Positions 8,626 through 57,191 of a DNA stretch of 64,000 nucleotides are shown one piece after another. Within the stretch, counting starts at the first letter, position 1, and each line of letters starts with the position of its first letter. The notes below the pieces were generated by a model that was not told the origin of the DNA, did not search any database, and was given only the letters and a program-made list of their open reading frames with translations. The position numbers and the translations under genes were made by a program. The stretch spans positions 1,054,001 to 1,118,000 of the forward strand of contig NZ_CP059557.1 of NCBI RefSeq assembly GCF_022828475.1, given 5' to 3'. This stretch comes from Saccharopolyspora gloriosae. GTDB lineage: Bacteria > Actinomycetota > Actinomycetes > Mycobacteriales > Pseudonocardiaceae.

Positions 8626-8629
8626 ACTG

Positions 8630-8784: not shown

Positions 8785-8920
8785 GGTCTCCCCGAGGACG
8801 AAGTCGATCAAGGCCCCGTACGAACCCCGGTGCCGCGTCCGGTTGGCGCTATCGGACTTGCGGACCCGCGGTTATCGTCGCCGTCTCGGCAGGCTGCCCT
8901 CCGCCCACAAAGGAGTGGTC

Positions 8921-23234: not shown

Positions 23235-23286
23235 GCGAGGAAGGGAACCTTCCTGCCACCGGTGACAGGAAGGTTCCCTTCCTCGC
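23235..23286. repeat. 52-bp palindromic repeat, consensus copy
   Basis: GCGAGGAAGGGAACCTTCCT, centre CACCGGTG, right arm AGGAAGGTTCCCTTCCTCGC; symmetric except for one base pair (GCC/GAC) beside the centre. One of only two copies lying between divergent genes. Confidence 0.95.
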
Positions 23287-28570: not shown

Positions 28571-28622
28571 GGGAGGAAGGGAACCTTTCTCTTGTATGTG
28601 GCAGGAAGGTTCCCTTCCTCTC
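28571..28622. repeat. 52-bp palindromic repeat, two-armed copy
   Basis: GGGAGGAAGGGAACCTTTCT, degraded centre TTGTATGTGG, right arm AGGAAGGTTCCCTTCCTC. Its right edge runs into the stop codon of the minus-strand aminopeptidase (28621-28623). Confidence 0.9.
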
Positions 28623-30063
28623 AGGGATGCGGGAGGTCGGTGCAGTGGGTGTGTGGGGGTGGGAGAGTTCCCTCTAGGAGGTAGTGGGCCGCGGCCGTGT
28701 CGAGGCAGGGGCTGTGTTGGCTTGCGAAGGCGCCGTGGGAGCGGCTGTCGTCGAGGGTGATCATCCGGGATTGGGGGAGCCGGGCTTGCATTCGCCGTGC
28801 GCCGTCGAGCGGTGTGGTGGGGTCGTGCTCGGCTTGGGTGAGCAGTACGGGAGGCATGTGGGGGTGCCCGAGCCGGGTGGTTTCACGTGGTTCGGGCCAG
28901 AAGGCGCAGGTGCCGGCTTCTAAGCCGGTGAGCACGGGTTGCGGGTCGGCGGCGCGCAGTGCGCGGACCGCGCCCAGGGCGTCGGGGATGGCGGGGCGTG
29001 GGCTGTCGGCGCATTTGACGGCGCGCAGCGCGGCTTCGGAGTTGTGATCGTCGGGTTCGGTGGAACGCAGTGCGCTGTCGTTGCCGGTGTGCACGTACTG
29101 GCTGAGGGCGCGGGCGAACGGTTCCCACCGTTCGGTGCGCGACAGCGTGCGGTAGACGACCCGGTCGAACTCGTCCGGCCCGAATTCGTCGACGGGAAGC
29201 GTGCTGCGTGCGTGGAGGTAATGCTCGCGGACGGTGCGGCGGTCGGCGCCGAGTCCGATTTCGGTATGTGCGGCGATCCAGTCGAACAGGGCGTCGCGCT
29301 GTTCGAGCATGGCGAAGCCTTGGCGGACGTCGAAGTGGTGCCAGTCGTCGGGGCTGACGACGCTGTCGAGCACCATGCGTCCGGTGTGCCGAGGGAATTC
29401 GGCGGCGTAGGCCGCGCCGAGATAGGTGCCGTAGGACACGCCCAGGTAGTTCAGCCGCGGCTCACCGAGCGCTCGCCTGATCCGGTCCATGTCGCGTGCG
29501 GTGTTCGTCGTGTTGATGTGCGGCAGCGCCGGTCCGATGTTGCGGGCGCAGTCGTCGGCGAGTCGGCGTAGGTCGCCGAGGTAGGCGTGTTCCTGTTCGG
29601 CTCCGGTGGGGACGGGGTCGGGCCGCGGGTGTTCGAACAGTCCGCCGGCGGGGCCGCAGTCGACCGGTGCGCTGTGGCCGACGCCGCGCGGGTCGAACCC
29701 GATGATGTCGTAGCTCTGCCTTACTTCGACGGGCATTTTGGCGCGTTTGCTCTCGGCGTAGTCGAGGCCGGTGCCACCGGGGCCGCCCGGGTTGACCAGG
29801 AGTGCTCCGCGTCGTTGCTGCGGCGGGCCGGAAGCGCGGATGCGGGAGACGGCGATGGTGATCGAGGGGCCGTCCGCTTCCGCGTAATCCAGCGGAACCC
29901 GGACATGTCCACATTGGACTTCGTGGTTGTCGGTCACGTCGGCCGGGCATGGCCCGAAAAGGATCCCGTCGCTCGGCGATTCGGCCGCGGCGGGCACGGG
30001 CACGAGCGCGGCGAGCAGGGGTGCGATGAGCAGGGCGGTGCGATTGTGACGCGAGTTGAACAC
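28621..30063 (-). CDS. secreted tripeptidyl/prolyl aminopeptidase-like alpha/beta hydrolase
   Basis: 480 residues from GTG 30063. Signal peptide MFNSRHNRTALLIAPLLAAL then VPVPAAAES with cleavage after AAA. Alpha/beta-hydrolase core: LLVNPGGPGGTG near residue 85 (oxyanion), nucleophile GVSYGTYLG near 200, then TQAEHDPTTPL (Asp) and DSRSHGAF (His) in the C-terminal TAP-like domain. These features match the Streptomyces tripeptidyl aminopeptidase/SlpD-E group, which cleave peptides outside the cell. GGAG 9 nt before GTG 30063 supports this start; the open frame begins earlier at a TTG. It is divergent from the ATP-grasp operon and shares the 100-bp spacer that holds a Fur/Zur-like box. Confidence 0.9.
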   Translation of the reverse strand: MFNSRHNRTALLIAPLLAALVPVPAAAESPSDGILFGPCPADVTDNHEVQCGHVRVPLDYAEADGPSITIAVSRIRASGPPQQRRGALLVNPGGPGGTGLDYAESKRAKMPVEVRQSYDIIGFDPRGVGHSAPVDCGPAGGLFEHPRPDPVPTGAEQEHAYLGDLRRLADDCARNIGPALPHINTTNTARDMDRIRRALGEPRLNYLGVSYGTYLGAAYAAEFPRHTGRMVLDSVVSPDDWHHFDVRQGFAMLEQRDALFDWIAAHTEIGLGADRRTVREHYLHARSTLPVDEFGPDEFDRVVYRTLSRTERWEPFARALSQYVHTGNDSALRSTEPDDHNSEAALRAVKCADSPRPAIPDALGAVRALRAADPQPVLTGLEAGTCAFWPEPRETTRLGHPHMPPVLLTQAEHDPTTPLDGARRMQARLPQSRMITLDDSRSHGAFASQHSPCLDTAAAHYLLEGTLPPPHTHCTDLPHP

Positions 30064-30109
30064 GCTGGGTGACTCCAGTGTTACCTGAATGGGGTTTGCC
30101 AACTGTATT

Positions 30110-30128
30110 GAACATGATTATCGTTACC
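30110..30128. promoter_or_regulatory. candidate Fur/Zur-family box 1 (ATP-grasp operon)
   Basis: GAACATGATTATCGTTACC lies 35 bp before the ATP-grasp start in an otherwise GC-rich spacer. It resembles the dyad GAAAATGATTATCATTTTC of Zur/Fur-type operators (14 of 19 by eye) and shares ATTATCGTT with box 2 at 36518. Confidence 0.5.
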
Positions 30129-30162
30129 GTCCGCTAGTGGGCAACCGTGCGGAGGAGTCGGA

Positions 30163-31431
30163 GTGGGTCACCTGCTGATGGTGGAAAGCTGGGTCGGGGC
30201 GATGAGCACGTTGTTGCCCCGCGGCATCCGGGACGGGGGCCACCGCTTCAGCTTCCTCACCCGGGACGTGCATCACTATCTGCGCGCATGGAACCGGCCG
30301 GGCGCGCATCCCTTGCTCAGCGCGGAGAACGTGCTCAGCGCAGAGACCAACGACGTGCCGTCACTGATCGAGCATGTTGCGAAACTCCAGCCTGCGCTGG
30401 GTTTCGACGGTGTGCTGACTTCATGCGACTATTACCTCGGCGCGACCGCGCACCTCGCGCAGAGCCTCGGTCTCCCCGGATCGCCACCGGAAGCGGTGGC
30501 GCGCGCCTGCAACAAGGACCAGACCCGGCTCGTCTTACGAGATGCCGGCGTTCCCGGACCCGCGTTCGCGCTCGCCGACAGTGCCTCCGGGCTTCGTGAA
30601 GCGGCCTTGGCTCTGGGCTTTCCGCTGGTGATCAAGCCGGTCGACCTGTGCGCGGGCATGTTCGTGCGCAAGGTGTCGAACGAGGCCGAACTGAACGAAG
30701 CGGTGCGCGAGCTGGAGGGGTTCCCGGTGAACGCCCGCGGGCAACGGCGCAGCGCCACGGTGCTGCTCGAGGAGCTGTTGACCGGCCCGGAAGTGAGCGT
30801 GGAAGCCGTTACGGCGCACGGCCGAACGACCGTCGTCGGAGTGACGGACAAGAGCGTCGGGGGCGAGCCCTGGTTCGTCGAAACCGGTCACATGTTCCCC
30901 GCCACGCTCGACGACGAAACCGAGCGGGCCGCCACCGCGGTCGCGGTCGCCGCCGTCGAGGCGCTCGGCTTGGACAACACGGTCACGCACACCGAGCTCA
31001 AACTGACCCCGGCCGGACCGCGCATCGTCGAGGTCAACCCGCGTCCGGCGGGTAACCAGATCACCGAGCTCATCCGCCGGGTTACGGGGATCGACCTGCC
31101 CGCGGTGCACGCGCAGCTCGCCGTGGGCGAACCGCCGCGGTTGACGGCGAACTCCACAGGTGCGGGCAGCGCGGCGATCTCTTTCCTGCTTCCGCCGCGG
31201 ACCGGGCCGATCCGTCGGATCGACGGTGTCGAGGACGTCCACGAAGCCGACGGCGTCGTCGACAGCACCTTCAAACCCGCCGGGCACGTGGCGGGCGCGG
31301 CCAGCAGCAACAACAACTACCTCGGACACGTGATGACGACCGACCCGCAACTCGGCGCGGCGCGCGCGCGAGCCGAGGCGGCGGTGGACTCCCTGCAGGT
31401 GATCTACGCCGAGGATCTGGTCAAGGCATGA
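30163..31431 (+). CDS. ATP-grasp carboxylate-amine ligase
   Basis: 422 residues from GTG 30163 (GGAGGAG at 30151-30157). ATP-grasp core: FPLVIKPVDLCAGMFVRKV near residue 160, VLLEELLTGPEVSVEAV near 205, HTELKLTPAGPRIVEVNPRP near 285 with the Mg-binding Glu/Asn, then AGNQITELIRRVTGIDLPAV. The order and the EVNPRPAG motif match amino-acid/dipeptide ligases (L-amino-acid ligase, carnosine-synthase-like) that activate a carboxylate as acyl phosphate and couple an amine. First gene of a six-gene overlapping operon. With the dipeptide-epimerase-like enzyme downstream, formation of a dipeptide or pseudodipeptide is likely. Substrates are not readable from sequence. Confidence 0.9.
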   Translation: MGHLLMVESWVGAMSTLLPRGIRDGGHRFSFLTRDVHHYLRAWNRPGAHPLLSAENVLSAETNDVPSLIEHVAKLQPALGFDGVLTSCDYYLGATAHLAQSLGLPGSPPEAVARACNKDQTRLVLRDAGVPGPAFALADSASGLREAALALGFPLVIKPVDLCAGMFVRKVSNEAELNEAVRELEGFPVNARGQRRSATVLLEELLTGPEVSVEAVTAHGRTTVVGVTDKSVGGEPWFVETGHMFPATLDDETERAATAVAVAAVEALGLDNTVTHTELKLTPAGPRIVEVNPRPAGNQITELIRRVTGIDLPAVHAQLAVGEPPRLTANSTGAGSAAISFLLPPRTGPIRRIDGVEDVHEADGVVDSTFKPAGHVAGAASSNNNYLGHVMTTDPQLGAARARAEAAVDSLQVIYAEDLVKA

Positions 31432-32261
31432 AGGACTCCTTCCTGTCATTGGACGCGTTCACTGCCGCCGTCGGAGCAGGGCTGGCGGGCGACGAAGTGG
31501 ACGAAGCGGAAGTGAGCGTCGGCTTCCTCACCCAGCAGGGCGTCCGGCATTCCGGGCGGGGCCGGTCGTACCGCAACCATGTGCTGAGCCTGCGAGTGGA
31601 GGACGCCGTCGGGTCGTGCGCTGTGGAGCCGGGAGTGCTCAGCGACGAACTGGTCATCGATTGCGTCGGTGCTTCGGTCGGGCGATTGCTACGGCATCCG
31701 GAGCCCGCGGTGCGCATCGCGGCAGCCGACGCGTACCTGATGTCGCGGCATCCGCACCACGAGCACGCCGAAGAAGTCCGGCTTCGGCGTGGAACCTCGC
31801 TGCAGAAATCATTGCAGCGAGCGGACATCGTGGTCGGCATGGTCCCGGACCACGTTCGCCGAGTGCTGGTGATCGGAGTGGTGAACTCACTGCTGCACCA
31901 GCTCCGCCGGCGCGGCATCGACTACGTCGCCTGCGATTTCAAAGGCGGCGTGACCGAGTGGGACGAGCCGATCGCGCGCGACGCGATGGCCGAAGTCGAC
32001 GGCTGTGATGCCGTGCTGGCGTCCGGAATGGTCGCGGGCAACGACACATTCGAGCCGTTGCTGGCGCACGTGCGCGCTGCAGGGAAGCCACTGGTCATGT
32101 TCGCGCAGACCGCGAGTGCCGTGCTGCCGTGGTTCCTCGGCTCCGGTGTCACCGCGATCTCCGCCGAGCCCTACCCGTTCTTCTGGCTCGACGGCGGGGC
32201 CGGCTCGCTCTACCGCTACCTCGGTCCGCGCAATTCAGAGCCAGGGAAGGACATTCGTTGA
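31428..32261 (+). CDS. Rossmann-like DUF364 (DUF4213/DUF364) protein
   Basis: 277 residues, ATG overlapping the previous stop by 4 bp. The N-terminal half (residues 1-120: SVGFLTQQGVRHSGRGRSYR, DCVGASVGRLLRHPEPAVRI) fits DUF4213; the C-terminal half (RADIVVGMVPDHVRRVLVIG, ACDFKGGVTEW, DAVLASGMVAGNDTFEPLLA, LVMFAQTASAVLPWFLGSGV) fits the DUF364 Rossmann-like domain, which structural genomics papers suggested may bind metals. In known genomes these proteins often sit near metal or ABC transport genes. No catalytic role is established for the family. Position between the ligase and the PLP enzyme suggests a biosynthetic step or substrate handling in the same pathway. Confidence 0.75.
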   Translation: MKDSFLSLDAFTAAVGAGLAGDEVDEAEVSVGFLTQQGVRHSGRGRSYRNHVLSLRVEDAVGSCAVEPGVLSDELVIDCVGASVGRLLRHPEPAVRIAAADAYLMSRHPHHEHAEEVRLRRGTSLQKSLQRADIVVGMVPDHVRRVLVIGVVNSLLHQLRRRGIDYVACDFKGGVTEWDEPIARDAMAEVDGCDAVLASGMVAGNDTFEPLLAHVRAAGKPLVMFAQTASAVLPWFLGSGVTAISAEPYPFFWLDGGAGSLYRYLGPRNSEPGKDIR

Positions 32262-33343
32262 TCGACCTCAGCACGAGCCCGGCCCGAGCGGCCAACCCGG
32301 ACCTGCTGTCGCTGATGCGCGACACGCCGGTCACCAGGGTCAGCACCCCGTTGCCGGATCACCATCCGGGATTCTGGGCGAAACTCGAATGCCTCGGGGC
32401 CGGTGGTATGAAGGCGCGCGCTGCGATCTCGATGCTGCGCGGCGCCCGTTCCCGCGGCGAACTCCGTCCCGGAGCGCCCGTGGTGGAGTCCACCAGCGGC
32501 ACCCTCGGGGTCGGACTCGCCTTCGCCGGCCAAGCACTGGGGCATCCCGTTGTTCTCGTCGTCGACCGGGAACTGGAGCGCAGCATGCGGTCGCTGCTGC
32601 GTGCGCACGGTGCCCGGACCGAGGTCGTCGACCGGCCGCACCCCGTGGGCGGCTGGCAACAAGCCAGGCTGGACCGGGTGCACCAGCTGTGCGCGGAACT
32701 GCCCGACGCCTATTGGCCCGATCAGTACAACAACCCGGACAACCCGGCGGGATACGAGCGACTGGCGGAGGAACTCGTCGCCCAGCTCGGTTCGGCCGAC
32801 ACCCTGGTCTGCAGCGTCGGATCGGGCGGGCACAGCGCGGGCATCATCCGCACGTTGCGGCGGCATTGGCCACGGCTGCGCCTGATCGGCGTCGACACCG
32901 TGGGCTCGACGATCTTCGGGCAGCCCGCGCGCCGCCGCATCATGCGCGGACTCGGCAGCAGCATCTTCCCGCGCAACGTCGCTTACGCCGAGTTCGACGA
33001 AGTGCACTGGGTGGGGCCGGCCGAAGCCGTCGACGCCTGCCGCAGGCTCGCCGCGCACTCCTTCGTCAGCGGCGGATGGAGCACCGGCGCGGTCGCCTTG
33101 GTGGCGGGCTGGGCGGCTCGGCGCGAGTCCGGTTCCCGAGTCGTCACCGTGTTCCCGGATGGCCCGCACCGATACCTCGACTCGATCTTCGACGACGAGT
33201 TCTGCCACGAACACGGCCTGCTCGGGGGCCGCCCGGCCACCCGGCCCGTGGAGATCGCCGACGCCGCGGCGATCGAAGTGCACGGCTGGGCGCGGTGCGG
33301 CTCCGTTCACGATCCGGCGAGGTCCGCGGAGGTGCCCGCATGA
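32258..33343 (+). CDS. cysteine-synthase-family PLP enzyme
   Basis: 361 residues from TTG 32258, which overlaps the preceding TGA and has GGGAAGG at 32244-32250. Fold-type II PLP enzyme: the Schiff-base Lys is in ECLGAGGMKARAAISML near residue 48, the phosphate/substrate loop is ESTSGTLGVGLAFAG near 75 (TSGNT equivalent), and the PLP-phosphate glycine loop is VCSVGSGGHSAG near 185. Homologues make cysteine or beta-substituted alanines such as 2,3-diaminopropionate precursors (SbnA type). Here it probably makes a beta-substituted amino acid used by the ligase. The C-terminal extension past residue 310 (CHEHGLLGGRP...) is typical of the specialised actinobacterial group rather than CysK. Confidence 0.87.
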   Translation: MIDLSTSPARAANPDLLSLMRDTPVTRVSTPLPDHHPGFWAKLECLGAGGMKARAAISMLRGARSRGELRPGAPVVESTSGTLGVGLAFAGQALGHPVVLVVDRELERSMRSLLRAHGARTEVVDRPHPVGGWQQARLDRVHQLCAELPDAYWPDQYNNPDNPAGYERLAEELVAQLGSADTLVCSVGSGGHSAGIIRTLRRHWPRLRLIGVDTVGSTIFGQPARRRIMRGLGSSIFPRNVAYAEFDEVHWVGPAEAVDACRRLAAHSFVSGGWSTGAVALVAGWAARRESGSRVVTVFPDGPHRYLDSIFDDEFCHEHGLLGGRPATRPVEIADAAAIEVHGWARCGSVHDPARSAEVPA

Positions 33344-34368
33344 AGCTCACTTGGTGCACGGGCAGGCTGCAATTACGGGAGCCGTTCCGCATTTCCCGCT
33401 CCGTCATGCACGAACGGGACGCGGTATGGATCGACGTGTCGCACGAGGAGCACATCGGCCACGGCGAAGCCGTCACCAGCGTCTACTACGACCTTGATCT
33501 GTCGCGGATCGTCACGCAGCTCGAAGCGCTGCGGCCGGTCATCGAGGAGAGCGAAGACCCCGACGAGCTCCTCGCTGATGCGCAGCGATGGGTGACTCTC
33601 GACCCGGGACTGCGGTGTGCGGTGGACGCGGCGCTGCACGACCTGGCGGCGAAATGCCGCGGCACCATCGTGCGCGACCTGATCGGGGCACCGTCCTTCG
33701 AGACCGCGCGGACCGCCTGCACGATCGGCATCGTTGATACCGCTCAAGCAGTGCGCACCGCCACCGAACTGACCGGCAGGGGATTCGGCGTCCTCAAAGT
33801 CAAACTCGGCGACGGCACCGAGGACGCGACCAGAGTGGCAGCGATCCGCGCGGCCGCACCCGACGCGCGGCTGCTGCTCGACCCCAACGGCGCTTGGGAG
33901 CCTGATCAGGCGCTTCGCATCCTCGAAGCCCTGGAACCGCACGGCATTTCCGCCGTCGAACAGCCCATCCGGCCCGGCTCCCCCGCGGATCTCGGCTGGG
34001 TCGCCCAACGCAGCCCCATCCCCGTGATCGCCGACGAGGACGCGCAGACCGTTGACGACGTGCGTGAACTCGGGTCTTCAGTGCACGGGGTGAACGTGAA
34101 ACTGGCCAAATGCGGCGGTATCCGGGCTGCCGTCGAGATCATCGAAACCGCCCGTTCCGCTGGTACCGAGGTGATGCTGGGCTGCCTGGTCGCCAGCTCA
34201 CTGGGCATCGCCCCCGCCGTGCACCTGGCCGGGCACGCCAGCTGGATCGACCTCGACGGGCACCTGCTGCTCGCGCACGATCCCTGGGACGGCATCGGAG
34301 GAATCGACGGAACGCTGCGGCTCAGCGGCCGTCCAGGGCTGGGCGTGCTCCCGAGGTCCTCGCCATGA
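33340..34368 (+). CDS. enolase-superfamily dipeptide epimerase-like enzyme
   Basis: 342 residues, ATGA overlap with the preceding gene. MLE-subgroup residues are present: catalytic KxK in FGVLKVKLGDG near residue 150, Mg ligands Asp in LLLDPNGAWEP near 180, Glu in AVEQPIRPG near 207, Asp in VIADEDAQTVDD near 230, and the second catalytic Lys in GVNVKLAKCGG near 252. Near the C-terminus IDLDGHLLLAHDPWDG contains the DxD that in dipeptide epimerases binds the dipeptide amino group. It would invert one alpha-carbon of a dipeptide, implying the product contains a D-residue. Muramyl-peptide recycling is an alternative, but the operon partners argue against it. Confidence 0.88.
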   Translation: MKLTWCTGRLQLREPFRISRSVMHERDAVWIDVSHEEHIGHGEAVTSVYYDLDLSRIVTQLEALRPVIEESEDPDELLADAQRWVTLDPGLRCAVDAALHDLAAKCRGTIVRDLIGAPSFETARTACTIGIVDTAQAVRTATELTGRGFGVLKVKLGDGTEDATRVAAIRAAAPDARLLLDPNGAWEPDQALRILEALEPHGISAVEQPIRPGSPADLGWVAQRSPIPVIADEDAQTVDDVRELGSSVHGVNVKLAKCGGIRAAVEIIETARSAGTEVMLGCLVASSLGIAPAVHLAGHASWIDLDGHLLLAHDPWDGIGGIDGTLRLSGRPGLGVLPRSSP

Positions 34369-35654
34369 CGACCTGGCGGCTCATCCGAAGCTACCCGCTC
34401 GCGGTGCAGGTGCTGCTGGTCAACCAGCTCGGCGTCAACATCGGCTTCTACCTGCTCATCCCGTACCTCGCCGGTTATCTGGGGCACGACCTGGGCATGT
34501 CCGCTGCCTTGGTCGGCGTGGTGCTCGGAGTGCGCAACCTGAGCCAGCAAGGCCTGTTCCTCATCGGCGGCACCGCATCCGACCGGCTCGGTGCCCGCGG
34601 GGTCATCATCGCGGGATGTGCGCTGCGCACCGTCGGATTCGGCCTGTTCGCGCTCGGCACCTCCCTGCCGATCCTGTTGCTCGCTTCGGGACTCAGCGGG
34701 CTGGCGGGGGCGCTGTTCAACCCCGCGGTGCGTGCCTACCTCGCGCAGGAGGCAGGGGAGCGGCGAGCCGAGGCGTTCGCGTTGTTCAACGTGTTCGCGA
34801 ACACCGGGGCGCTGGTCGGGCCACTGCTCGGAAGTGCGCTCGTCGTCATCGGTTTCGCCACTTCCGCGCTCGTCGCCGCACTGATCTTCGCGTTGCTCAC
34901 CATCGCGCAGATCGTCGTATTGCCGCCCAGAGCGGTGGCACCTGCGCGCAACACCGTTCTGGGTGATTGGGGTGGGGTGCTCGGCAACAAGCGGTTCCTC
35001 GGGTTCACCCTTGCGCTGACCGGGATGTTCGCTTTGCAGAACCAGCTGTACCTGGTTCTGCCGATGGAAGCGGCCAGGCTCACCGGATCCAGCGGCTCCG
35101 TCGCCGCGGTATTCATCGTGTCCACAGTGGCCGGACTTCTGCTGCAGGTGCGCATCACCAGACGCTCCCAACGGCGGTGTTCCCAGGGCGGTGCCATCGC
35201 GGCGGGCATGGTCCTGATGGGGCTCGCGTTCCTCGCCACCGTGATCGCCGGAATCGCCGTTCCCAGCGCGTCGGCTCCGCTCGAACCGCCCGATGCACTG
35301 CTCAGGCTCAGTCCGGTGCTGGTGGCGACGCTCGTGCTCACCATCGGGCTGATGCTGGCGCAGCCGTTCGTCAACGACCTCATTCCCGCATTCGGGTCGA
35401 GTTCGCTGTCCGGCACCTACTTCGGGGTCTTCTACCTCGCCTCCGGGATCACCGCGGCAGCGGGCAATGCCGTGATCGGCCGGGTGAGCGATATCGCCGG
35501 ACACCGAATGCCGTGGGCACCGTCGGCACTGTGCCTCGGCCTCGGGCTCGTCTCCGCCGCCGCCGTGATCGTCCTGCACCGCAACGGACTCATAGGTCCG
35601 AAATCGACTTCGCAACCGGGAGCCTCCGCGTGCACAACGACGCCAACTTCCTGA
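34365..35654 (+). CDS. MFS transporter, probable exporter
   Basis: 429 residues, about 12 transmembrane helices starting LIRSYPLAVQVLLVNQLGVN then IGFYLLIPYLAG. The MFS loop motif is GGTASDRLGARGVIIAG after helix 2 (GxxxDRxGxR). ATG 34365 overlaps the previous stop by 4 bp. Architecture resembles drug/metallophore efflux MFS proteins (e.g. the role of CntE or SbnD in staphylococcal systems). Within this operon it most likely exports the product made by the enzymes upstream. The stop lies 25 bp inside the next gene. Confidence 0.9.
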   Translation: MTTWRLIRSYPLAVQVLLVNQLGVNIGFYLLIPYLAGYLGHDLGMSAALVGVVLGVRNLSQQGLFLIGGTASDRLGARGVIIAGCALRTVGFGLFALGTSLPILLLASGLSGLAGALFNPAVRAYLAQEAGERRAEAFALFNVFANTGALVGPLLGSALVVIGFATSALVAALIFALLTIAQIVVLPPRAVAPARNTVLGDWGGVLGNKRFLGFTLALTGMFALQNQLYLVLPMEAARLTGSSGSVAAVFIVSTVAGLLLQVRITRRSQRRCSQGGAIAAGMVLMGLAFLATVIAGIAVPSASAPLEPPDALLRLSPVLVATLVLTIGLMLAQPFVNDLIPAFGSSSLSGTYFGVFYLASGITAAAGNAVIGRVSDIAGHRMPWAPSALCLGLGLVSAAAVIVLHRNGLIGPKSTSQPGASACTTTPTS

Positions 35655-36415
35655 CCGACAACCCCGAGCTTTACGAACAGCAATTCCCCGACCCGGAGCA
35701 CCTCGCCGCACGATTCGTCCTCGACCTGCTCGGTCGGCACGGCGCGGGGAACAAGCTGCTCGACGTGGGGTGCGGCAGCGGACGCGATGCCGGGTTCTGG
35801 TCGCGGAACGGGTATCGCGTGACCGGGATCGATACCTCGCCGCGGATGATCGAGTACGCCCGGGCGCAATGCCCCGACGGCACCTTTCTCGTCGACGACA
35901 TGCGCGAATTCCGGCTGGACGATGTTTTTGACGCCATCACCTGCCTCGACAGCGCCTTCTTGTACTGCCACACGAATTCCGAGCTCGACGGTTTCCTCGA
36001 GCGTTGTCGCGCTCAGGTGCGGCCAGGTGGGCTGCTCATCGCCGAAATGCGCAACGGGGCCTTCTTCCTCGGCAGCCGCGAACTGCTCGACGGTGTTCGT
36101 GAACGGTCCGTGAGCTGGAATGGGGTGGACTACCGGTCCCGGACCCGGCTGTGGATCGACCACGCTGAGCAATTGCTGCGCCGGGAACGTATTTGGGACT
36201 GGCCCGGCTGCGGCGACGAACTCACCCAGCGATCCGCCTGGCGTCTGCTGTTCCCGCAAGAACTTCACCGAATCCTGCGCCAGGCCGGCTTCGAAGTGCT
36301 CGCCATGTTCGACCACCCCGGTCCGCGAACCGACCCCGCTTGGCACCCCGGCTCGCCCCTCAACACATCTCTCACCGGCGACCGCCTCCACCTCATCGCC
36401 CGGCGCCCCACCTGA
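35630..36415 (+). CDS. class I SAM-dependent methyltransferase
   Basis: 261 residues from GTG 35630 (GGGAG at 35618-35622), overlapping the MFS gene by 25 bp. SAM-binding motif I is LLDVGCGSGRDAGFW near residue 45, motif II region GIDTSPRMIEYARAQ near 68, and motif post-II DAITCLDSAFLY near 105. The C-terminal half resembles small-molecule N/O-methyltransferases of the glycine/sarcosine type. Last gene of the biosynthetic operon; it probably methylates an amine or hydroxyl of the product. A palindromic repeat follows 10 bp after the stop. Confidence 0.9.
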   Translation: MHNDANFLTDNPELYEQQFPDPEHLAARFVLDLLGRHGAGNKLLDVGCGSGRDAGFWSRNGYRVTGIDTSPRMIEYARAQCPDGTFLVDDMREFRLDDVFDAITCLDSAFLYCHTNSELDGFLERCRAQVRPGGLLIAEMRNGAFFLGSRELLDGVRERSVSWNGVDYRSRTRLWIDHAEQLLRRERIWDWPGCGDELTQRSAWRLLFPQELHRILRQAGFEVLAMFDHPGPRTDPAWHPGSPLNTSLTGDRLHLIARRPT

Positions 36416-36424
36416 ACTCGTGAT

Positions 36425-36476
36425 GCGAGGAAGGGAACCTTCCTGCCACCGGTGACAGGAAGGTTCCCTTCCTCGC
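36425..36476. repeat. 52-bp palindromic repeat, consensus copy
   Basis: GCGAGGAAGGGAACCTTCCT, centre CACCGGTG, right arm AGGAAGGTTCCCTTCCTCGC; 52 bp, identical to the copy at 23235. It separates the biosynthetic operon from the transporter operon. Confidence 0.95.
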
Positions 36477-36517
36477 GGTGTTCGTGACGTGAGGCAGATC
36501 CCCTTTCGGGGCTTGTT

Positions 36518-36536
36518 GAAAAGTATTATCGTTTTC
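36518..36536. promoter_or_regulatory. candidate Fur/Zur-family box 2 (ABC importer operon)
   Basis: GAAAAGTATTATCGTTTTC has perfect GAAAA/TTTTC outer arms and matches the dyad GAAAATGATTATCATTTTC at 16 of 19 positions. It lies 53 bp before the binding-protein start in an AT-rich island. Confidence 0.55.
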
Positions 36537-36588
36537 TTTTGCTGGTCGGGTGACCGGTTGAAGGCAGGGACCGGAATGGAGGGTGTGC

Positions 36589-38163
36589 GTGGAGTCCGAA
36601 AGGTCGGCCGTGTACTCATCTGATCGAAGCCCGGTGACGAGGCGGGGCTTCCTGGGGCTGACGGCGGCGGCCGCCGTCGCGGGTGTGTCCGGATGCGCCG
36701 CGGGGAGTTCCAGCTCGGGTGCGGGCTCGCCGCGGCCGGGAGGCCGGCTGCGGGCGGTGTTTCCAGGGGGAGGGGCCGAGGAGGTACTGGATCCGCACAC
36801 CACGGATCTGTACGCCGAGGTCGCCCGGGCGAAAGCGCTTTTCGACAAGCTCGCGGACTACGGATCCGACATGTCCCCGCAGCCGCGGCTGGCCGAGCGG
36901 TGGGAGTCGAGCGCGGACCTGCTCACTTGGCGAGTCCCGTTACGGGACGCGACGTTCCACGATGGAAAGCCGGTGCGTGCCGACGACGTGTTATCGAGTT
37001 ACGCGCGCATTCTGCGCCCCGATAGCACTCGCAGGGCCAAGGCCAGCCTGTCGGTCATCGACCTCGCCAACAGTCGTGCCATCGACGACCGCACCGTCGA
37101 GTTCCGGTTGACGCGCCCGTATGCGGAGTTCCCCAACGCGCTCGCCACGTTAGGCGCATACATCGTCCCGGAAGGCGCGCAGGACTTCGACCACCCCGTC
37201 GGGTCGGGGCCGTTCCGGTTCGCCTCGTTCGAACCGGGACGCAGCTTCCTCGGCAAGCGGAACCCCGACTACTGGGAAGGGGCCGCGTATCTCGACGAGC
37301 TGGAGATCCTGGTCAGCAACGACGAATCCGCCAGAGTGAACGCACTGCTCGGGGACCAGGCGGACTACGCGCACGACCTGACCGCCACCACCGCGCGCAG
37401 CCATGAGGACGCCGGGCAGGTCCAGATCCACCGACTGCCGCTGAGCAACTTTCACGCATTGGCGATGAAGGTCGACCGCCCGCCGTTCGATCGACGTGAG
37501 GTTCGGCAAGCGTTCTTCCACTTGATCGACCGCGAGGAACTGGTCCGTGCGGTGTTGCAGGGGTCCGGGGACGTCGCCAACGACCTTTTCGGGAAGAACT
37601 ACCAGTACTACAACAGCGCGTTGCCGCAGCGGCGTCGAGATCTGCACAAGGCCAAGGCGTTGTTGCGCGAGGCGGGTGCGGAGAACCTGACGGTCGAACT
37701 GCTCACCTCCGAAGCGTCACCTGGTCTGCGTGAGGCCGCGTTGGCGTTCGCCGACCAGGCGAAGGAGGCGGGAGTGACGGTTAAGGTGACCTTGGGGAAC
37801 AAGGACACCTACTGGTCGGACATCGCTGAGCAAGGGTCCGTGGTCAGCTACCGCTCCGGTGCGATGCCGATCGAGTCGCACATTTCGCAACGGTTGCTGT
37901 CGGGTTCGACGACCAACAACACCAAGTGGCGTCGTCGCGACTTCGACGAGCTGTACCAACAAGCTCAGGCCACAGCGGACGAACACAGGAGAGCCGAGCT
38001 CTACATGCAGATGCAGCGCGAGCTGTTCGAAGAGGGCGGATTCCTGTGGTGGGGCGTGTCGGATTGGATCGTGGCGTCGGCGAACCGGGTCGGCGGGATC
38101 GATGACCGCGCTCCGGCGAACACCCTGGACTGGGCACGGTTCGACAAGGTGTGGCTGGGGTGA
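36589..38163 (+). CDS. ABC transporter substrate-binding lipoprotein (Dpp/Nik type)
   Basis: 524 residues from GTG 36589 (GGAGGG at 36578-36583). The N-terminus has a twin-arginine-like TRRGFLGLTAAAAVAGVSGC with lipobox VSGC, so it is a lipoprotein, possibly Tat-exported. The body is the SBP family 5 fold: LDPHTTDLYAEVARAKALFD, RDATFHDGKPVRADDVL, VGSGPFRFASFEPG and RREVRQAFFHLIDRE. This family binds oligopeptides, dipeptides, nickel or metallophore complexes. Being first in an operon with two permeases and a fused ATPase, behind a Fur/Zur-like box, it most likely captures the metal complex of the compound made by the upstream operon (inference). Confidence 0.92.
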   Translation: MESERSAVYSSDRSPVTRRGFLGLTAAAAVAGVSGCAAGSSSSGAGSPRPGGRLRAVFPGGGAEEVLDPHTTDLYAEVARAKALFDKLADYGSDMSPQPRLAERWESSADLLTWRVPLRDATFHDGKPVRADDVLSSYARILRPDSTRRAKASLSVIDLANSRAIDDRTVEFRLTRPYAEFPNALATLGAYIVPEGAQDFDHPVGSGPFRFASFEPGRSFLGKRNPDYWEGAAYLDELEILVSNDESARVNALLGDQADYAHDLTATTARSHEDAGQVQIHRLPLSNFHALAMKVDRPPFDRREVRQAFFHLIDREELVRAVLQGSGDVANDLFGKNYQYYNSALPQRRRDLHKAKALLREAGAENLTVELLTSEASPGLREAALAFADQAKEAGVTVKVTLGNKDTYWSDIAEQGSVVSYRSGAMPIESHISQRLLSGSTTNNTKWRRRDFDELYQQAQATADEHRRAELYMQMQRELFEEGGFLWWGVSDWIVASANRVGGIDDRAPANTLDWARFDKVWLG

Positions 38164-39107
38164 GCATTCCCAGCTACGTCGTCCGACGAGTACTTCTGGG
38201 CGTCGTTCAAGTTTTCCTCGCCATGGTGCTCGTGTTCTTCCTGACCGAGGCGCTGCCGGGTGATGCGGCGGTCACCATCGCCGGTGACAACCCGGATCCG
38301 GCGATCATCGAGCTGTTGCGCGAACAACTCGGGCTGAACGCGCCGTGGTGGCAGCGTCTCGGCCAGTGGATGTTCGGCGCTGTCCAAGGTGATTTCGGCC
38401 GGTCGTTGGTGGGTCCCCGTTCCGTAGTGGACATCATCGGTTCCTCCATCGGCCCCACCTTGTTACTGGCGTTGCTGACGTTGGCGCTGGTCATCCCGGT
38501 GTCGCTGGGACTCGGTGTCTTGGCCGCGAATCGGGAAGGCCGCGTCGCCGATCGCGTCATCTCCGCAACCACGCTCGGCCTCTACTCGGTGCCCGAGTTC
38601 GCCATGGGAATTCTGCTGGTCACGGTTTTCGCCGTTCAGCTCGGCTGGTTACCGCCGACGGCGGTCGGCGGTAGCGGACTGATGAGCCGTCCGGCTGTGC
38701 TGGTGCTGCCGGTCTTGGTGCTGCTGCTTCGCCCGATCTGCTCGCTGAGCAGGCTCATCCGAGCGGGAATGATCGACGCATTGCATTCGAGCTTCGTTCA
38801 GCAGGCACGTCGCTCCGGGATTTCGCCAGTGCGTGTGCAGGTGGCGCACGCCCTGCCCAACGCCGTCGTTCCCGCCGTGCAGCAACTCGCGCGGACGGCC
38901 GACTGGCTCATCGGCGGCGTCATCGTAGTGGAGGCGATCTTTGTGATCCCAGGGCTGGGCACGACGCTGATCGAGTCCGTCTCGGCGCGGGATCTTCCGG
39001 TGATCCAAGGATTGTCCGTTGTGTTGGCGAGCGTGACGGTCCTGGTGAACCTTGCCGCCGACATCGTTGCTCGCATCCTCGCGCCGGCAGCGGAGGCATA
39101 CGGATGA
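38160..39107 (+). CDS. ABC transporter permease (DppB/NikB type)
   Basis: 315 residues, GTG 38160 overlapping the preceding TGA. About six membrane segments; the N-terminal helix and loop YVVRRVLLGVVQVFLAMVLV then EALPGDAA and LREQLGLNAPWWQRLGQWM are the DppB signature. The EAA-like loop contacting the ATPase is ARRSGISPVRVQVAHALPNA, followed by GGVIVVEAIFVIPGLG. Forms the translocation pore with the next gene product. Confidence 0.92.
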   Translation: MSIPSYVVRRVLLGVVQVFLAMVLVFFLTEALPGDAAVTIAGDNPDPAIIELLREQLGLNAPWWQRLGQWMFGAVQGDFGRSLVGPRSVVDIIGSSIGPTLLLALLTLALVIPVSLGLGVLAANREGRVADRVISATTLGLYSVPEFAMGILLVTVFAVQLGWLPPTAVGGSGLMSRPAVLVLPVLVLLLRPICSLSRLIRAGMIDALHSSFVQQARRSGISPVRVQVAHALPNAVVPAVQQLARTADWLIGGVIVVEAIFVIPGLGTTLIESVSARDLPVIQGLSVVLASVTVLVNLAADIVARILAPAAEAYG

Positions 39108-39895
39108 GGCGTTTTTTGATCCCAGGGCTGCTGATCGCTATCCCGGTGGTGCTGGCGGTGTTCGGCCCGATGTTCGCGACCGCTGAGGTAGACAAGGACG
39201 TCGCGTTCAGTAGTGGCGCCGGGCATCTGTTCGGTACCGACTTCGTCGGCAGAGACGTGTGGAACGAGGTTCTGCTGGGCGGTCGCTCAGTCGTGCTGGT
39301 CGCCGTGGCGGCCACCCTGTGCACATACCTGATAGCGGTCCCGATCGGAGTCGCGGTCGGGATGAGCCGGGCCAGGTTCGTCGGTGAGGCGGTGATGCGA
39401 CCGCTGGACGTCTTCCTAGCGGTGCCGTCGATGCTCTTGCTGCTGTTGCTGGCTTCCACGGCGCCGAACGTCCTTTGGGCGTTGGTCGTGATCGTCACAG
39501 TGATCAACCTTCCGGATGTCATCAGAATGTCGCGTGCTTCGGCGCTCGCGATCGCGGCGAGACCGGCCGTGGAGGCGATGCGCCTCCAAGGAGAGAATCG
39601 GGCACGCATCGGGTTCGGCTATGTCGTGCGGGCGATGGTGCGGACCTTGGCCGCGGATTTGGGGACGAGGTTCACCGGTGCCATCTACCTCGTTGCGTCG
39701 GCGAGTTTCCTCGGCGTCGGTGTGTCCCCGCAGACCAGCGACTGGGCGGCGATGGTGGACCGCAACCGCACCGGTCTGTTCCTGCAGCCTTGGGCGGTTG
39801 TGTTGCCCGCATTGCTGATCGTGGCATTGTCGGTGGGAGTCAATCTGGCGTTCGACCAGCTGTTGCGCAGGAAGCGGCGAGAGGTGCGCACGTGA
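39104..39895 (+). CDS. ABC transporter permease (DppC/NikC type)
   Basis: 263 residues, ATGA overlap with the preceding permease. About six transmembrane segments. HLFGTDFVGRDVWNEVLLGG near residue 43 is the conserved DppC FGTDxxGRDV motif; the coupling loop is EAMRLQGENRARIGFGYVVR and the end ASFLGVGVSPQTSDWAAMV is also family-typical. The N-terminus is somewhat shorter than most DppC proteins. Second pore subunit. Confidence 0.92.
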   Translation: MRRFLIPGLLIAIPVVLAVFGPMFATAEVDKDVAFSSGAGHLFGTDFVGRDVWNEVLLGGRSVVLVAVAATLCTYLIAVPIGVAVGMSRARFVGEAVMRPLDVFLAVPSMLLLLLLASTAPNVLWALVVIVTVINLPDVIRMSRASALAIAARPAVEAMRLQGENRARIGFGYVVRAMVRTLAADLGTRFTGAIYLVASASFLGVGVSPQTSDWAAMVDRNRTGLFLQPWAVVLPALLIVALSVGVNLAFDQLLRRKRREVRT

Positions 39896-41460
39896 ACGTC
39901 GTCGATGTCGGCGAACTGAAGGTCTCGCTGGATGCTCGGCCCGTGGTGGAGGGAGTGTCGTTCGCCTTGGCTGGCGGCCAGGTGACCGCGTTGGTGGGCG
40001 AATCCGGTAGTGGCAAGACCACCACCGGACTGGCTCTGCTCGGTGAATATCCGTCCGGGGCGGACGTCGCCGGCGAGGTAGTGGTGGCCGGTCACCGAGT
40101 GGGCGCCGGAAATCCACCCGCGCCCGGCAGGGTCGGGTACATCCCGCAACACCCGTCGGCGGCGCTCAATCCGGTGCGCCGTGTCGGCGCGGTGCTGCGG
40201 GAGATCGCACGCAGGCACATCGGTGACGTTCCACGCGCCGAACGCAAGGAATTCGTCCGCGCCAAGGTCGAGACCGCGTTGCGCCGAGCACAGCTCCCCG
40301 ACGGCGACGCCCTGTTGAACCGCTATCCGCACCAGCTCTCCGGCGGGCAACAGCAGCGCATTCTGCTGGCCCAAGCGTTGGTGTGCGACCCGGCGGTGGT
40401 GATCGCGGACGAGCCGACCACCGGTCAGGACGCGCTCACCCGCATGCAGATCGTGGCGGAGCTGCGGAACCTGGCCGAAATGGGCATCGCGGTGCTGCTG
40501 CTCACCCATGACCTCGACGTGGTGCGGCAGCTGGCGCATAACGTGCTGGTCATGCGTGCCGGGGCGGTCGTCGAATCCGGATCTGCGGCCGAGGTTCTGA
40601 GCTCGCCGGAACATCCCTACACGAGACTCTTGGTCGAATCGCAGCCCGACAGCCGGGTACCACTCGGTACCGGCGGCGAGGCTCCGCCCGCAGTGGTGTC
40701 CGCGCGTGAGTTGGTAGCCGGGCACCGAGAACGGGGACGGTACGTCGAGACGCTGCACACGATGTCGCTCGACATCGGGCTTGGGGAGCGCATCGCCATC
40801 GTGGGCCGTTCCGGCAGTGGCAAGACGACGCTGGCCAGGTGTCTCGCCGGTCTGCACCCACCTCGAAGCGGGTCTGTGCTGCTCGACGGAACGCCGCTCG
40901 CAGCTCGATTGCATGGGCGAACCCGCGAACAGCTGGCGGACATCCAGTACGTCTTCCAAGACGCCCGAGCATCGTTTAACGAGTTCGCACCCGTTATCGA
41001 CCAGGTGGCCAGAACGGCGGAACGACTTCGAGATGCCGGTCGTCAGCAGGCTCGCCGCCAGGCGAACGGTTGGTTCGAACGGGTGGGACTCGGTTCGGAG
41101 ATCACCGCTCGCCATCCTGAATCGCTGTCCGGCGGCGAGTTGCAACGCGCTGCGCTCGTCCGGGCGCTGCTCGCCGAACCACGAGTCCTGATCTGCGATG
41201 AGATCACGTCCGGACTGGACACGGTGACGCAAGCGGAGCTGCTCGGCGCGCTGAAGGAACTCCAGGGCGCGGCCCACTGCGCCTTGGTGGTGATCACACA
41301 TGACCTGGGGGTGGTGGCCGATCTTGCCGACCGGGTGGTGATCGTCGAAGAAGGACAGATCGTCGAGCAGGGGCCTGCCTCGGAAGTGCTGCGTTCTCCA
41401 CAACATTCGATGACGTGCGCGCTGGTCGAGGCCGCGACGAGCCGAATCGCCCGGGCGTAG
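39892..41460 (+). CDS. ABC transporter ATP-binding protein, fused DppD-DppF type
   Basis: 522 residues from GTG 39892, overlapping the permease stop. Two full nucleotide-binding domains in one chain: first Walker A VGESGSGKTTTG near residue 38, signature LSGGQQQRILLA near 145, Walker B VVIADEPTTG near 168; second Walker A VGRSGSGKTTLAR near 303, signature LSGGELQRAALV near 407, Walker B VLICDEITSGLD near 430. Each domain also has its His-switch (THDLDVV, THDLGVV). Such fusions drive dipeptide/nickel/metallophore importers. The stop lies inside a terminator hairpin. Confidence 0.94.
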   Translation: MNVVDVGELKVSLDARPVVEGVSFALAGGQVTALVGESGSGKTTTGLALLGEYPSGADVAGEVVVAGHRVGAGNPPAPGRVGYIPQHPSAALNPVRRVGAVLREIARRHIGDVPRAERKEFVRAKVETALRRAQLPDGDALLNRYPHQLSGGQQQRILLAQALVCDPAVVIADEPTTGQDALTRMQIVAELRNLAEMGIAVLLLTHDLDVVRQLAHNVLVMRAGAVVESGSAAEVLSSPEHPYTRLLVESQPDSRVPLGTGGEAPPAVVSARELVAGHRERGRYVETLHTMSLDIGLGERIAIVGRSGSGKTTLARCLAGLHPPRSGSVLLDGTPLAARLHGRTREQLADIQYVFQDARASFNEFAPVIDQVARTAERLRDAGRQQARRQANGWFERVGLGSEITARHPESLSGGELQRAALVRALLAEPRVLICDEITSGLDTVTQAELLGALKELQGAAHCALVVITHDLGVVADLADRVVIVEEGQIVEQGPASEVLRSPQHSMTCALVEAATSRIARA

Positions 41461-41479
41461 GCCCGCCAGGGCGATTCGG
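41442..41479. terminator. terminator hairpin at the end of the importer operon
   Basis: CCGAATCGCCC (41442-41452) pairs perfectly with GGGCGATTCGG (41469-41479); inner GGGC/GCCC around GTAG forms a second step. The ATPase stop codon (41458-41460) lies in the loop. Confidence 0.65.
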
Positions 41480-41601
41480 GGACGACTCGGCATGGGCGTG
41501 CGGTAAGCGGAGGGGAACATGCCTCCATGCTTCATCGTCGAACGACTGTTCGTCATCGCTGAAGCGGGTAAGGATCGTGTCGCCCGATCTTGCGCGTTCG
41601 A

Positions 41602-42216
41602 TCACCCGGCGTAGTCGATGTCGGAAAGCTCGAATCCGGCCGACTTCGGGTGAGTTGTTCCCGTCTTGCCCGCGAGTGCAATCTCGAAATGGACGCTGGG
41701 GCTGTACCGGGAGTCCTGGCGGGCGTCGTAGATCTCCGTCGCCGCGCTCTGCCAGAACGGCGCGGCGCCCTCGATCGCGGGATTCGTGTGCAGGTAAATC
41801 GTCGAGTACTCCGGCGTGCTCGACACGAAATCGCAGGCCATCGAGACCAATGCGGTCGCCAAGCCGTGGCGTCGATGCTCCCGGTCCACGTAGACGCGGA
41901 ACAACTGGGCCGTCCGGCCGTCGCTGTACCGGGCGGCGAGCCACTCCGGGTGCGGTGGGCACCGCGGGCCGCCCGAACGGATCGCCGTCGTCGCCGCGAC
42001 CTGCCCGTCCCGAACCGCTACGAACAGCGCGTGGCGCGGGTTGTTCAGGTAGGCGCCTTCGATGTCCACGACATCCGAGTGCCAGCGCGCGTGGTAGCCG
42101 TGCCCGAACTCCTTGTAGAAGGTGTCGAGCATGACCCTCCGGGCGCCCTCGACGTCTTCGATGCGGGCGCGGCGCGCGACGTACTCGCCGATTCGGTGCT
42201 CTTCCTGGTGATCCAT
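41602..42216 (-). CDS. GNAT-family N-acetyltransferase
   Basis: 204 residues. The acetyl-CoA-binding motif A is TAQLFRVYVDREHRRHGLAT then ALVSMACDFV (R/Q-x-x-G/A as RRHGLA) near residue 105; the C-terminal strand HTNPAIEGAAPFWQSAA contains the family N and F/Y positions. GGAG lies 6 nt upstream of ATG 42216. It converges on the importer operon, and 70 bp upstream of its start lies a third Fur/Zur-like box (42285-42303), so it may belong to the same regulon and acetylate an intermediate or the product. A general detoxifying or signalling acetyltransferase is the alternative. Confidence 0.85.
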   Translation of the reverse strand: MDHQEEHRIGEYVARRARIEDVEGARRVMLDTFYKEFGHGYHARWHSDVVDIEGAYLNNPRHALFVAVRDGQVAATTAIRSGGPRCPPHPEWLAARYSDGRTAQLFRVYVDREHRRHGLATALVSMACDFVSSTPEYSTIYLHTNPAIEGAAPFWQSAATEIYDARQDSRYSPSVHFEIALAGKTGTTHPKSAGFELSDIDYAG

Positions 42217-42284
42217 ATGTTCTCCATCGGGTTCTCGCGCCTGGGTCGCCGAGCAACGCGACTACCGGTGCGCCGAAGCCACAA

Positions 42285-42303
42285 TACAATGACTCTCGTT
42301 TTC
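42285..42303. promoter_or_regulatory. candidate Fur/Zur-family box 3 (GNAT gene)
   Basis: On the minus strand the site reads GAAAACGAGAGTCATTGTA; on the plus strand CTCGTTTTC is shared with box 2 apart from one base. It lies 70-90 bp upstream of the GNAT start. Weakest of the three. Confidence 0.4.
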
Positions 42304-42355
42304 AATAAGGCCAGGGTTCCAGCGGAAGAAGATCGAGAAGAGGTGCTGAGGTACC

Positions 42356-42407
42356 GCGAGGAAGGGAACCTTCCTGTCACCGGCGACAGAGAGGTTCCCT
42401 TCCTCGC
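42356..42407. repeat. 52-bp palindromic repeat, two-armed copy
   Basis: GCGAGGAAGGGAACCTTCCT, centre CACCGGCG, right arm AGAGAGGTTCCCTTCCTCGC, with CCGCGAGG/CCTCGCGG extending the outer pairing. It lies between divergent GNAT and SDR genes. Confidence 0.93.
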
Positions 42408-44132: not shown

Positions 44133-44205
44133 TGCCCTCGGCAGGACTCGAACCTGCGACACCTGCCTCCGGAGGGCAGTGCTCTATCCGCTGAGCTACG
44201 AGGGC
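44133..44205 (-). tRNA. tRNA-Arg (anticodon CCG)
   Basis: Read on the minus strand: acceptor GCCCTCG pairs with CGAGGGC, D-arm GCTCAGCGGATAGAGC, anticodon stem CTGCC/GGCAG with loop CTCCGGA (anticodon CCG, reads CGG), and T-arm CGCAGGTTCGAGTCCTGCC; 73 bases with discriminator A and no encoded CCA. TAGGCT on the minus strand at 44227-44232 could be its -10 element. Confidence 0.95.
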
Positions 44206-44308
44206 TTGCTGTTGTTGACGTAGGTCAGCCTAGCGCACCGGTCGGTGTGTGCTGGAAGGGGGTAACGGTTCCGGTGGCTTGTGTGCCGTCCAACGAGTGG
44301 ACACTTGT

Positions 44309-44337
44309 TTGCATTCATGCGTATCTCGCTATATATC
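44309..44337 (+). promoter_or_regulatory. candidate promoter of the CDF transporter gene
   Basis: TTGCAT (44309-44314) and TATATC (44332-44337) are 17 bp apart, 30 bp before the start. The AT-rich stretch GCTATATATCATG is unusual here and may also hold a metal-sensor operator. Confidence 0.4.
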
Positions 44338-44365
44338 ATGGTGTCGTGTGGATGGGAGGTTCGTG

Positions 44366-56504: not shown

Positions 56505-56556
56505 GCGAGGAAGGGAACCTTCCTGCCACCGGTGGCAGGAAGGTTCCCTTCCTCGC
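56505..56556. repeat. 52-bp palindromic repeat, perfect copy
   Basis: GCGAGGAAGGGAACCTTCCT, GCCACCGGTGGC at the centre, right arm AGGAAGGTTCCCTTCCTCGC: a complete 52-bp palindrome with every pair matched. It marks the right edge of the argS-rho block. Confidence 0.96.
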
Positions 56557-56955: not shown

Positions 56956-57191
56956 GGGTAAAGGATGATCGTGAGTTGCTCCGCTCGCACTGATCGGCGG
57001 CGGCCACTCGGCGGACGGTCGTCCCGTCGCGCCGGACGGTCGTGCACCCCCGCGACTAGGAATAACGTTCGGCCCGCCTGCGTTCCAGGTCAACCCACTC
57101 GGTCTGGCAGAATGACGGGCCGAGTCGGCTCCGGTTCACCTCGCGATGACGGTCGACGAGGACCCGGCGGCCCCGAACAGGAGGACACGCT

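Follow-up and report, generated by a model that had tools for sequence, protein, structure and literature searches.

A conserved actinobacterial locus pairing DUF364 with an SbnA-like enzyme as a candidate zinc-starvation metallophore system, with a predicted cobalt-linked sister clade

What is made by a compact set of biosynthesis, export and import genes in Saccharopolyspora gloriosae, and which metal, if any, does the product serve? We analyzed this locus in a 64 kb stretch of the 6.88 Mb host genome (the whole stretch is hereafter called the window). An initial annotation had read it as a metal-regulated system for the synthesis, export and re-import of a small molecule, and had drawn its limits from the first base of a Zur-like box (box 1, 30109) to the last base of another (box 3, 42304). 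The six overlapping genes that it named, from an ATP-grasp ligase to a methyltransferase, are present and span 30163-36415. The genes for the ATP-grasp ligase, the DUF364 protein, a pyridoxal phosphate (PLP) enzyme and an enolase-superfamily enzyme each overlap the next gene by 4 bases, and those for the major facilitator superfamily (MFS) transporter and the methyltransferase overlap by 25 bases. A four-gene importer of the Dpp/Nik/Opp type with a lipoprotein receptor and a fused ATPase, and a convergent GNAT acetyltransferase gene, also stand where they had been placed (Table 1). We consider it quite likely that the locus is a zinc-starvation metallophore system, whose product would be made, exported and re-imported.

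Control by zinc is suggested by boxes upstream of the genes. We scored 15-mers over 11 positions against tGaNNatSatNNtCa, a motif of another genus taken from the available text of a chromatin immunoprecipitation study of Streptomyces coelicolor Zur (PMC5472717). The initial annotation had described an AT-rich Fur/Zur-like box before each unit of the locus. This stands for box 1 (10/11) and box 3 (9/11), but not for box 2 (8/11), which alone is not above chance because 80 positions in the window score 8 (11 positions score 9 and 3 score 10). In the 250 bases before the ATP-grasp gene, we observed a box of at least 9/11 in 67 of 87 loci, a set that includes a few genomes twice, and in 58 of the 78 loci of the named set, 31 of which reached at least 10/11; shuffled ATP-grasp upstreams reached at least 9/11 in 3.7%. 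Boxes of at least 9/11 were absent before the interior genes duf364 (0/90), palp, the PLP-enzyme gene (0/89), and enol (0/87). GNAT genes were preceded by one in 18 of 51 cases (1.2% in shuffles), and the genes of the substrate-binding protein (SBP) in only 3 of 83 in the wider set. The best upstream box of a Streptomyces plasmid copy of the locus scored 10/11. Genome-wide, the Zur pattern with at most one mismatch gave 95 sites, each seen on both strands, versus 11 for the reversed pattern. As a separate observation, an exact copy of box 1 lies at G000:C1:2647068-2647082 (locus L138), with a sulphydrylase-like gene and a reading frame resembling oxygenases nearby, both named by eye. Judged by sequence only, the motif matches argue for Zur-type, metal-responsive control of the biosynthetic operon, a mark of metallophore systems.

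The locus extends well beyond the genus. A scan of species genomes gave at least 583 DUF364 relatives; the counts that follow rest on the best 80, which are close relatives, and some of their loci end at contig ends. Homologues of palp, duf364 and the ATP-grasp gene were found in all 80, of enol in 78, of mfs in 76, of perC in 75, of sbp in 74, of perB in 73, of the methyltransferase gene in 71 and of the GNAT gene in 51; the ATPase had a homologue in 76, a count that could include unrelated ATP-binding cassette (ABC) ATPases. Conserved co-occurrence had been proposed as a check on the initial annotation, and across these relatives the locus is indeed conserved, with hosts in Saccharopolyspora, Streptoalloteichus, Lentzea, Actinokineospora, Micromonospora, Nonomuraea, Frankia and Streptomyces. 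A putative exporter and a putative importer are thus encoded beside the biosynthesis genes in most named relatives (MFS 76/80, SBP 74/80). Streptomyces and Rhodococcus plasmid records show the same gene order under generic names ('DUF364 domain-containing protein', 'cysteine synthase family protein', 'dipeptide epimerase'). No description of this gene set was found in the literature searched, which leaves out most subscription papers and preprints.

The enzymes give an indication of the chemistry. By sequence, the PLP enzyme has its nearest PDB relative in SbnA (5d87, 6e-42), and the PLP lysine and the equivalents of SbnA R132 and Y152 are invariant in 136 of 136 aligned rows. Its neighbour scores over the Pfam gathering threshold for DUF364 (PF04016) and has an enolase-N and Rossmann-like fold, with about 14-15% identity to the DUF364 proteins Dhaf4260 (3l5o) and PH1506 (3npg). 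In the available text of the Dhaf4260 paper, the title proposes heavy-metal chelation, the abstract a flavin or pterin derivative, and the reaction is unassigned (PMC2954201). The ligase, an ATP-grasp protein with an LAL_C2 domain, distantly resembles BacD and DdaF, and its match to PRK02186 spans only the N-terminal part of the latter. In the enolase-superfamily enzyme, the KxK motif, the metal ligands, the second lysine and the DxD motif, which together we take to be a dipeptide epimerase signature, are conserved in 78-79 of 79 rows, consistent with a predicted dipeptide epimerase. The SBP matches the NCBIfam models Opp5A_nikA (167.7 bits) and CntA (85.8 bits), reaching neither cut-off, and its N-terminus, judged by eye, is twin-arginine translocation (Tat)/lipobox-like.

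Taken together, we propose the following route. At low zinc, Zur would be released from box 1 and the operon transcribed. The SbnA-like enzyme would then form an alanine with an amino substituent at the beta position; its probable substrates are O-phosphoserine and an amine donor, for instance an amino acid. DUF364, as its Rossmann-type partner enzyme, may turn the substituted alanine into a chelating core. In loci of the window type (clade A, see below), the ligase, the epimerase-like enolase and the methyltransferase would modify the core; the MFS protein would export the product, and the SBP/permease/ATPase unit would bring the metal complex back in. The chemistry and the product, its binding of metal and the way in which each transporter works are predictions drawn from sequence. 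We infer the order of ligation, epimerisation and methylation rather than observe it, because every clade keeps DUF364 and the PLP enzyme, and the ligase, the epimerase and the window-type methyltransferase were not found in clade B.

The pair of DUF364 and an SbnA-like PLP enzyme was found in three clades, mostly alongside exporter and importer genes, and SbnA was the top NCBIfam model for the PLP enzymes tested from all three. The window genome and the five genus mates searched carry two DUF364 loci each. In a tree of 75 DUF364 proteins (27 of 89 from clade A, all 22 from clade B and all 26 from clade C), each clade occupied one side of a branch, with Shimodaira-Hasegawa-like approximate likelihood ratio test (SH-aLRT) values of 98, 95 and 100. 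Clade B was represented by 22 of the 24 best-scoring places of the second type, chosen by score (17 of them picked before the riboswitch search there); lower-ranked places were not sorted into clades. The stretches read, of 15-19 kb, contained DUF364, the PLP enzyme and an MFS gene in 22/22, an adjacent SBP-permease-permease-ATPase unit in 14/22 and a GNAT gene in 7/22; homologues of the ligase, the enolase and the window-type methyltransferase were found in none of them. Upstream of duf364, on the same strand, all 22 loci carry the Rfam cobalamin riboswitch RF00174 (85-103 bits versus a gathering threshold of 31.5), its 3' end lying about 150-340 bases before the DUF364 match. Strong Zur-like boxes (at least 10/11) within 170 bases upstream of clade-B system genes were found in 0/22 loci (0.2 expected). 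Three clade-B loci (L231-L233) have homologues of cation diffusion facilitators nearby, with Zur-like boxes in the vicinity.

Clade C, read in 26 loci hand-picked from a lower identity tier to cover genera, keeps DUF364 and the PLP enzyme in 26/26; homologues of the MFS transporter occur in 20 and of GHMP kinases in 18, and another methyltransferase in 16. Importers were found in 23/26, of the FecB/FecCD/FecE type in 21 and of the Opp type in 2; the 26 loci read gave no homologue of the ligase or the enolase. A Zur-like box of at least 10/11 precedes a system gene in 11/26 (0.1 expected). No cobalamin riboswitch was detected before duf364 in clade C (Rfam in 4 loci; a regular expression in 22 loci, with two matches elsewhere) or in 80 named clade-A loci (regular expression; one distant match), and Rfam gave none at the window locus. 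We also considered iron control of clade C and rejected it: in nine loci, six of them from the 26 of clade C, the best matches to an IdeR/DmdR1-like consensus were mostly 12-13/19, at the shuffle level of 12-14, and the Zur-like boxes fit better. The exceptions were L032 (15/19 and 14/19; the sites lie some 3 kb off the called operon and within a called gene) and the clade-A locus L156 (14/19). A Tsukamurella tyrosinosolvens plasmid (L273) carries a DUF364/PALP/MFS/FecBCD operon of the clade-C type with an upstream Zur-like box of 9/11. With a clade-B DUF364 as query, matches of any clade were obtained in 6 of 396 genomes of a phylum sample (our own genome included), in 138 of 346 of the family and in 121 of 295 of one genus, apparently Streptomyces.

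Does the riboswitch tie clade B to cobalamin (B12) and cobalt in our own genome? We observed seven cobalamin riboswitches over the cut-off there, with 150 of 592 first-look candidates scored. By Pfam and position, they precede metE and the genes of a family-5 SBP and a ribonucleotide reductase, a DUF364-PALP-MFS operon, and genes that encode CobN, a chelatase-like AAA protein and a FecB/BtuF-like periplasmic binding protein. The DUF364-PALP-MFS operon is the second of the genome (locus L021; G000:C1:4144071-4144910). The riboswitch-linked SBP shares 67% identity with its clade-B counterpart from locus L030, and two permease genes come after it (L270, about 6448-9694; G000:C1, about 4328400-4331700); the riboswitch before it is the highest-scoring of the genome, and no ATPase gene was found adjoining these permeases. 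Thus, the clade-B synthesis/export operon and the importer genes lie about 187 kb apart, each with a cobalamin riboswitch of its own. The cobalt/nickel permease families CbiM and NicO had no match in the genome, other cobalt transporter families not being searched. Because synthesis/export and import are each riboswitch-linked and CbiM and NicO were not found, cobalt is favoured for clade B, which is probably a cobalt metallophore system on this genomic evidence. Riboswitch function being predicted, the clade-B operon suggests that the same enzyme core also serves cobalt acquisition.

Overall, the metal-regulated cycle of synthesis, export and re-import proposed in the initial annotation gains support from the Zur-like boxes of clade A, the riboswitch of the clade-B paralogue, which in 14 of 22 loci also has the same importer type, and the boxes and FecBCD-type importers of clade C. 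We cautiously favour, with modest confidence, a wider reading in which DUF364 and the SbnA-like enzyme form the core of a new metallophore class under differing metal controls, clades A and C being Zur-controlled zincophores and clade B a 'cobaltophore' supplying cobalt for B12, a term not found in the literature searched. If this holds, DUF364, the subject of a structure paper since 2010, would gain a pathway and a partner enzyme, and a widespread actinobacterial metallophore class (at least 583 DUF364 relatives) would come into view that core rules of the opine-like or EDDS-like kind would likely miss. For clade B, it would mean that bacteria release a small molecule and take it back to gather cobalt for B12, under the control of B12 itself.

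Several results weigh against the zinc-starvation metallophore reading of the window locus. The score of its PLP enzyme against TIGR03945 (SbnA, 2,3-diaminopropionate biosynthesis) falls under the curated cut-off of 349.95, so that the enzyme is of the same kind as SbnA and not the same equivalog, and it has a glycine at the position aligned with SbnA residue 185. DUF364 has no assigned reaction. Box 2 is too weak to be evidence by itself; it is identical in L022, L023 and L024 and related in L027. A box of at least 9/11 is lacking in as many as 20 of the 78 named loci (for L062, which is among them, no score could be read), and the Rhodococcus plasmid copy reaches only 8/11. The interior control perC carries such a box in 5/85 cases versus 0.7% in shuffles; these scores therefore also arise without a promoter. 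Canonical Zur-type targets of the genome, an rpmB2-type ribosomal-protein operon (TGAAAACGAATGTCG) and one znuA upstream (TGACAACGGTTTCCG), have boxes that look like those of the locus but with fewer motif matches. Therefore, the published motif is only a proxy here, and the exact motif of the genus may differ. Finally, the genome encodes five Fur-family regulators.

These elements could also serve methionine rather than a chelator. Shortage of zinc and of B12 both impair methionine synthesis, since MetE needs zinc and MetH needs B12, and the PLP enzyme, DUF364 and the transporters might then make or move a sulphur amino acid. Cystathionine beta-synthase and cysteine synthase are relatives of the PLP enzyme, and 3 of the 22 clade-B operons (L021, L036 and L037, all in the genus of the window and including our own genome) have a methanethiol-oxidase-like SBP56 gene behind them, which was not found in the other 19 loci. 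The riboswitch of metE in our genome cuts both ways: it links methionine to B12, but it also means that metE already has a switch of its own. We hold a methionine rescue to be unlikely, as SbnA is the top NCBIfam model for the PLP enzymes tested from each clade, an exporter and an importer in one operon are ill-suited to salvage, and none of the genes for the ligase, the epimerase and the methyltransferase is a sulphur gene.

Equally doubtful to us is a zinc-regulated bioactive dipeptide or antimetabolite, made by an L-amino acid ligase, taken up again by its producer and acetylated as self-protection, with no metallophore role. The LAL_C2 ligase with its BacD and DdaF likeness, the DxD motif of the epimerase and the GNAT gene would all suit such a product. 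The clade-B and clade-C stretches have no match to the ligase or the enolase, yet they retain DUF364 and the PLP enzyme throughout and mostly the MFS and importer genes, and the regulatory elements indicate zinc or B12.

Returning to the metallophore reading, does the locus belong to a known family? Opine-like zincophore loci carry an MFS exporter, an Opp-type or FecCD importer and methyltransferase or acetyltransferase extras, and are defined by the nicotianamine-synthase-like CntL beside the opine dehydrogenase CntM (PMC7438024, available text). The locus resembles the staphylopine, pseudopaline, bacillopaline and yersinopine systems in its compact biosynthesis genes and its kinds of exporter and importer, but no CntL/CntM-type model was found among the 11 locus proteins by Pfam, as the initial annotation had noted. 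With the [S,S]-ethylenediaminedisuccinate (EDDS) system of Amycolatopsis japonicum it shares an actinobacterial host and zinc regulation, which is predicted here (for EDDS as cited in the available text of PMC12161575). It also shares an SbnA-like enzyme (best model TIGR03945, under cut-off). The EDDS system reportedly combines an SbnA-like PLP enzyme with an SbnB-like dehydrogenase and an argininosuccinate-lyase-like enzyme; SbnB-like and argininosuccinate-lyase-like genes were not found among the 11 locus proteins, and DUF364, the ATP-grasp ligase, the epimerase and the methyltransferase stand in their stead. Because the defining enzymes were not found, we place the locus in neither family. 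That it nevertheless makes a known zincophore of the opine-like or EDDS kind by way of enzymes that escaped recognition, as the same logic, transporter kinds and Zur-like control might suggest, is very improbable given that nicotianamine-synthase-like and opine-dehydrogenase models, an argininosuccinate-lyase domain and an SbnB-like gene were not found in the locus.

Two further systems were compared. SbnA of the SbnA/SbnB L-2,3-diaminopropionate module of staphyloferrin B is the nearest PDB relative of the PLP enzyme, but the partner here is DUF364 and not SbnB, and no NIS (non-ribosomal-peptide-synthetase-independent siderophore) synthetase is present among the locus proteins. The sbn genes are under iron control, whereas zinc or B12 elements are found here. 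Coelibactin, the Zur-regulated non-ribosomal peptide synthetase (NRPS) zincophore of S. coelicolor, is likewise a Zur-linked small-molecule cluster of an actinobacterium (PMC5472717, available text), but the window locus has no NRPS.

Table 1. Genes, Zur-like boxes and repeat copies at and around the candidate metallophore locus (window positions).
Feature	Position	Strand	Evidence or score
Secreted TAP-like alpha/beta hydrolase, candidate accessory gene, divergent across box 1	28621..30102	-	Pfam Abhydrolase_1 and TAP-like
Zur-like box 1 (TGAACATGATTATCG), between the divergent hydrolase and ATP-grasp genes	30109..30123	.	10/11
ATP-grasp ligase with L-amino acid ligase C-terminal domain (LAL_C2)	30163..31431	+	Pfam PF13535 2.4e-21, PF18603 2.5e-16
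DUF364 (PF04016) enzyme, core gene	31428..32261	+	Enolase-N-like and Rossmann-like fold
SbnA-like PLP enzyme (PALP; beta-replacement family), core gene	32258..33343	+	Best NCBIfam model TIGR03945, 254.9 bits
Dipeptide-epimerase-like enolase-superfamily enzyme	33340..34368	+	Pfam MR_MLE_C 6.9e-39; NCBIfam DgcA-type
MFS transporter, putative exporter (MdtH-like), core gene	34365..35654	+	Pfam MFS_1 2.6e-28; MdtH model 143.7 bits, under cut-off
Class I S-adenosylmethionine-dependent methyltransferase	35630..36415	+	Pfam Methyltransf_25 1e-17
Weak Zur-like box 2 (TGAAAAGTATTATCG), upstream of importer	36517..36531	.	8/11
Substrate-binding lipoprotein, SBP family 5 (NikA/CntA/Dpp kind)	36583..38163	+	Pfam SBP_bac_5 2.4e-80
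ABC permease B	38151..39107	+	Pfam BPD_transp_1 6.1e-30
ABC permease C	39104..39895	+	Pfam BPD_transp_1 3.7e-20
Fused ABC ATPase, two nucleotide-binding domains	39892..41460	+	Pfam ABC_tran, 2 stretches, 1.6e-55
GNAT acetyltransferase, convergent accessory gene	41602..42216	-	Pfam Acetyltransf_1 1.3e-12
Zur-like box 3, upstream of GNAT gene	42290..42304	.	9/11
Dispersed palindromic repeat, example copies	23239-23282, 36429-36472, 42360-42403, 56509-56552		

The hydrolase gene, which the initial annotation did not name, may belong to the system, because a homologue is divergent from and adjoins the ATP-grasp gene in 23 of the 80 relatives and a hydrolase is annotated in the same position on a Streptomyces angustmyceticus plasmid; a 24th match (locus L110) lies elsewhere, away from the ATP-grasp gene. 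Beyond the locus, at 44366-45283, we observed a cation diffusion facilitator gene (Cation_efflux, ZT_dimer), and no Zur-like box of at least 8/11 was found at 44200-44400. An L31-Actinobacteria ribosomal protein leader (RF03158, 50 bits) lies at 57125-57172. The window also contains a dispersed palindromic repeat (GGAAGGGAACCTTCCTGNNACCGG and its inverse), with 28 matches at up to 3 mismatches versus 0 expected, many of them in inverted pairs.

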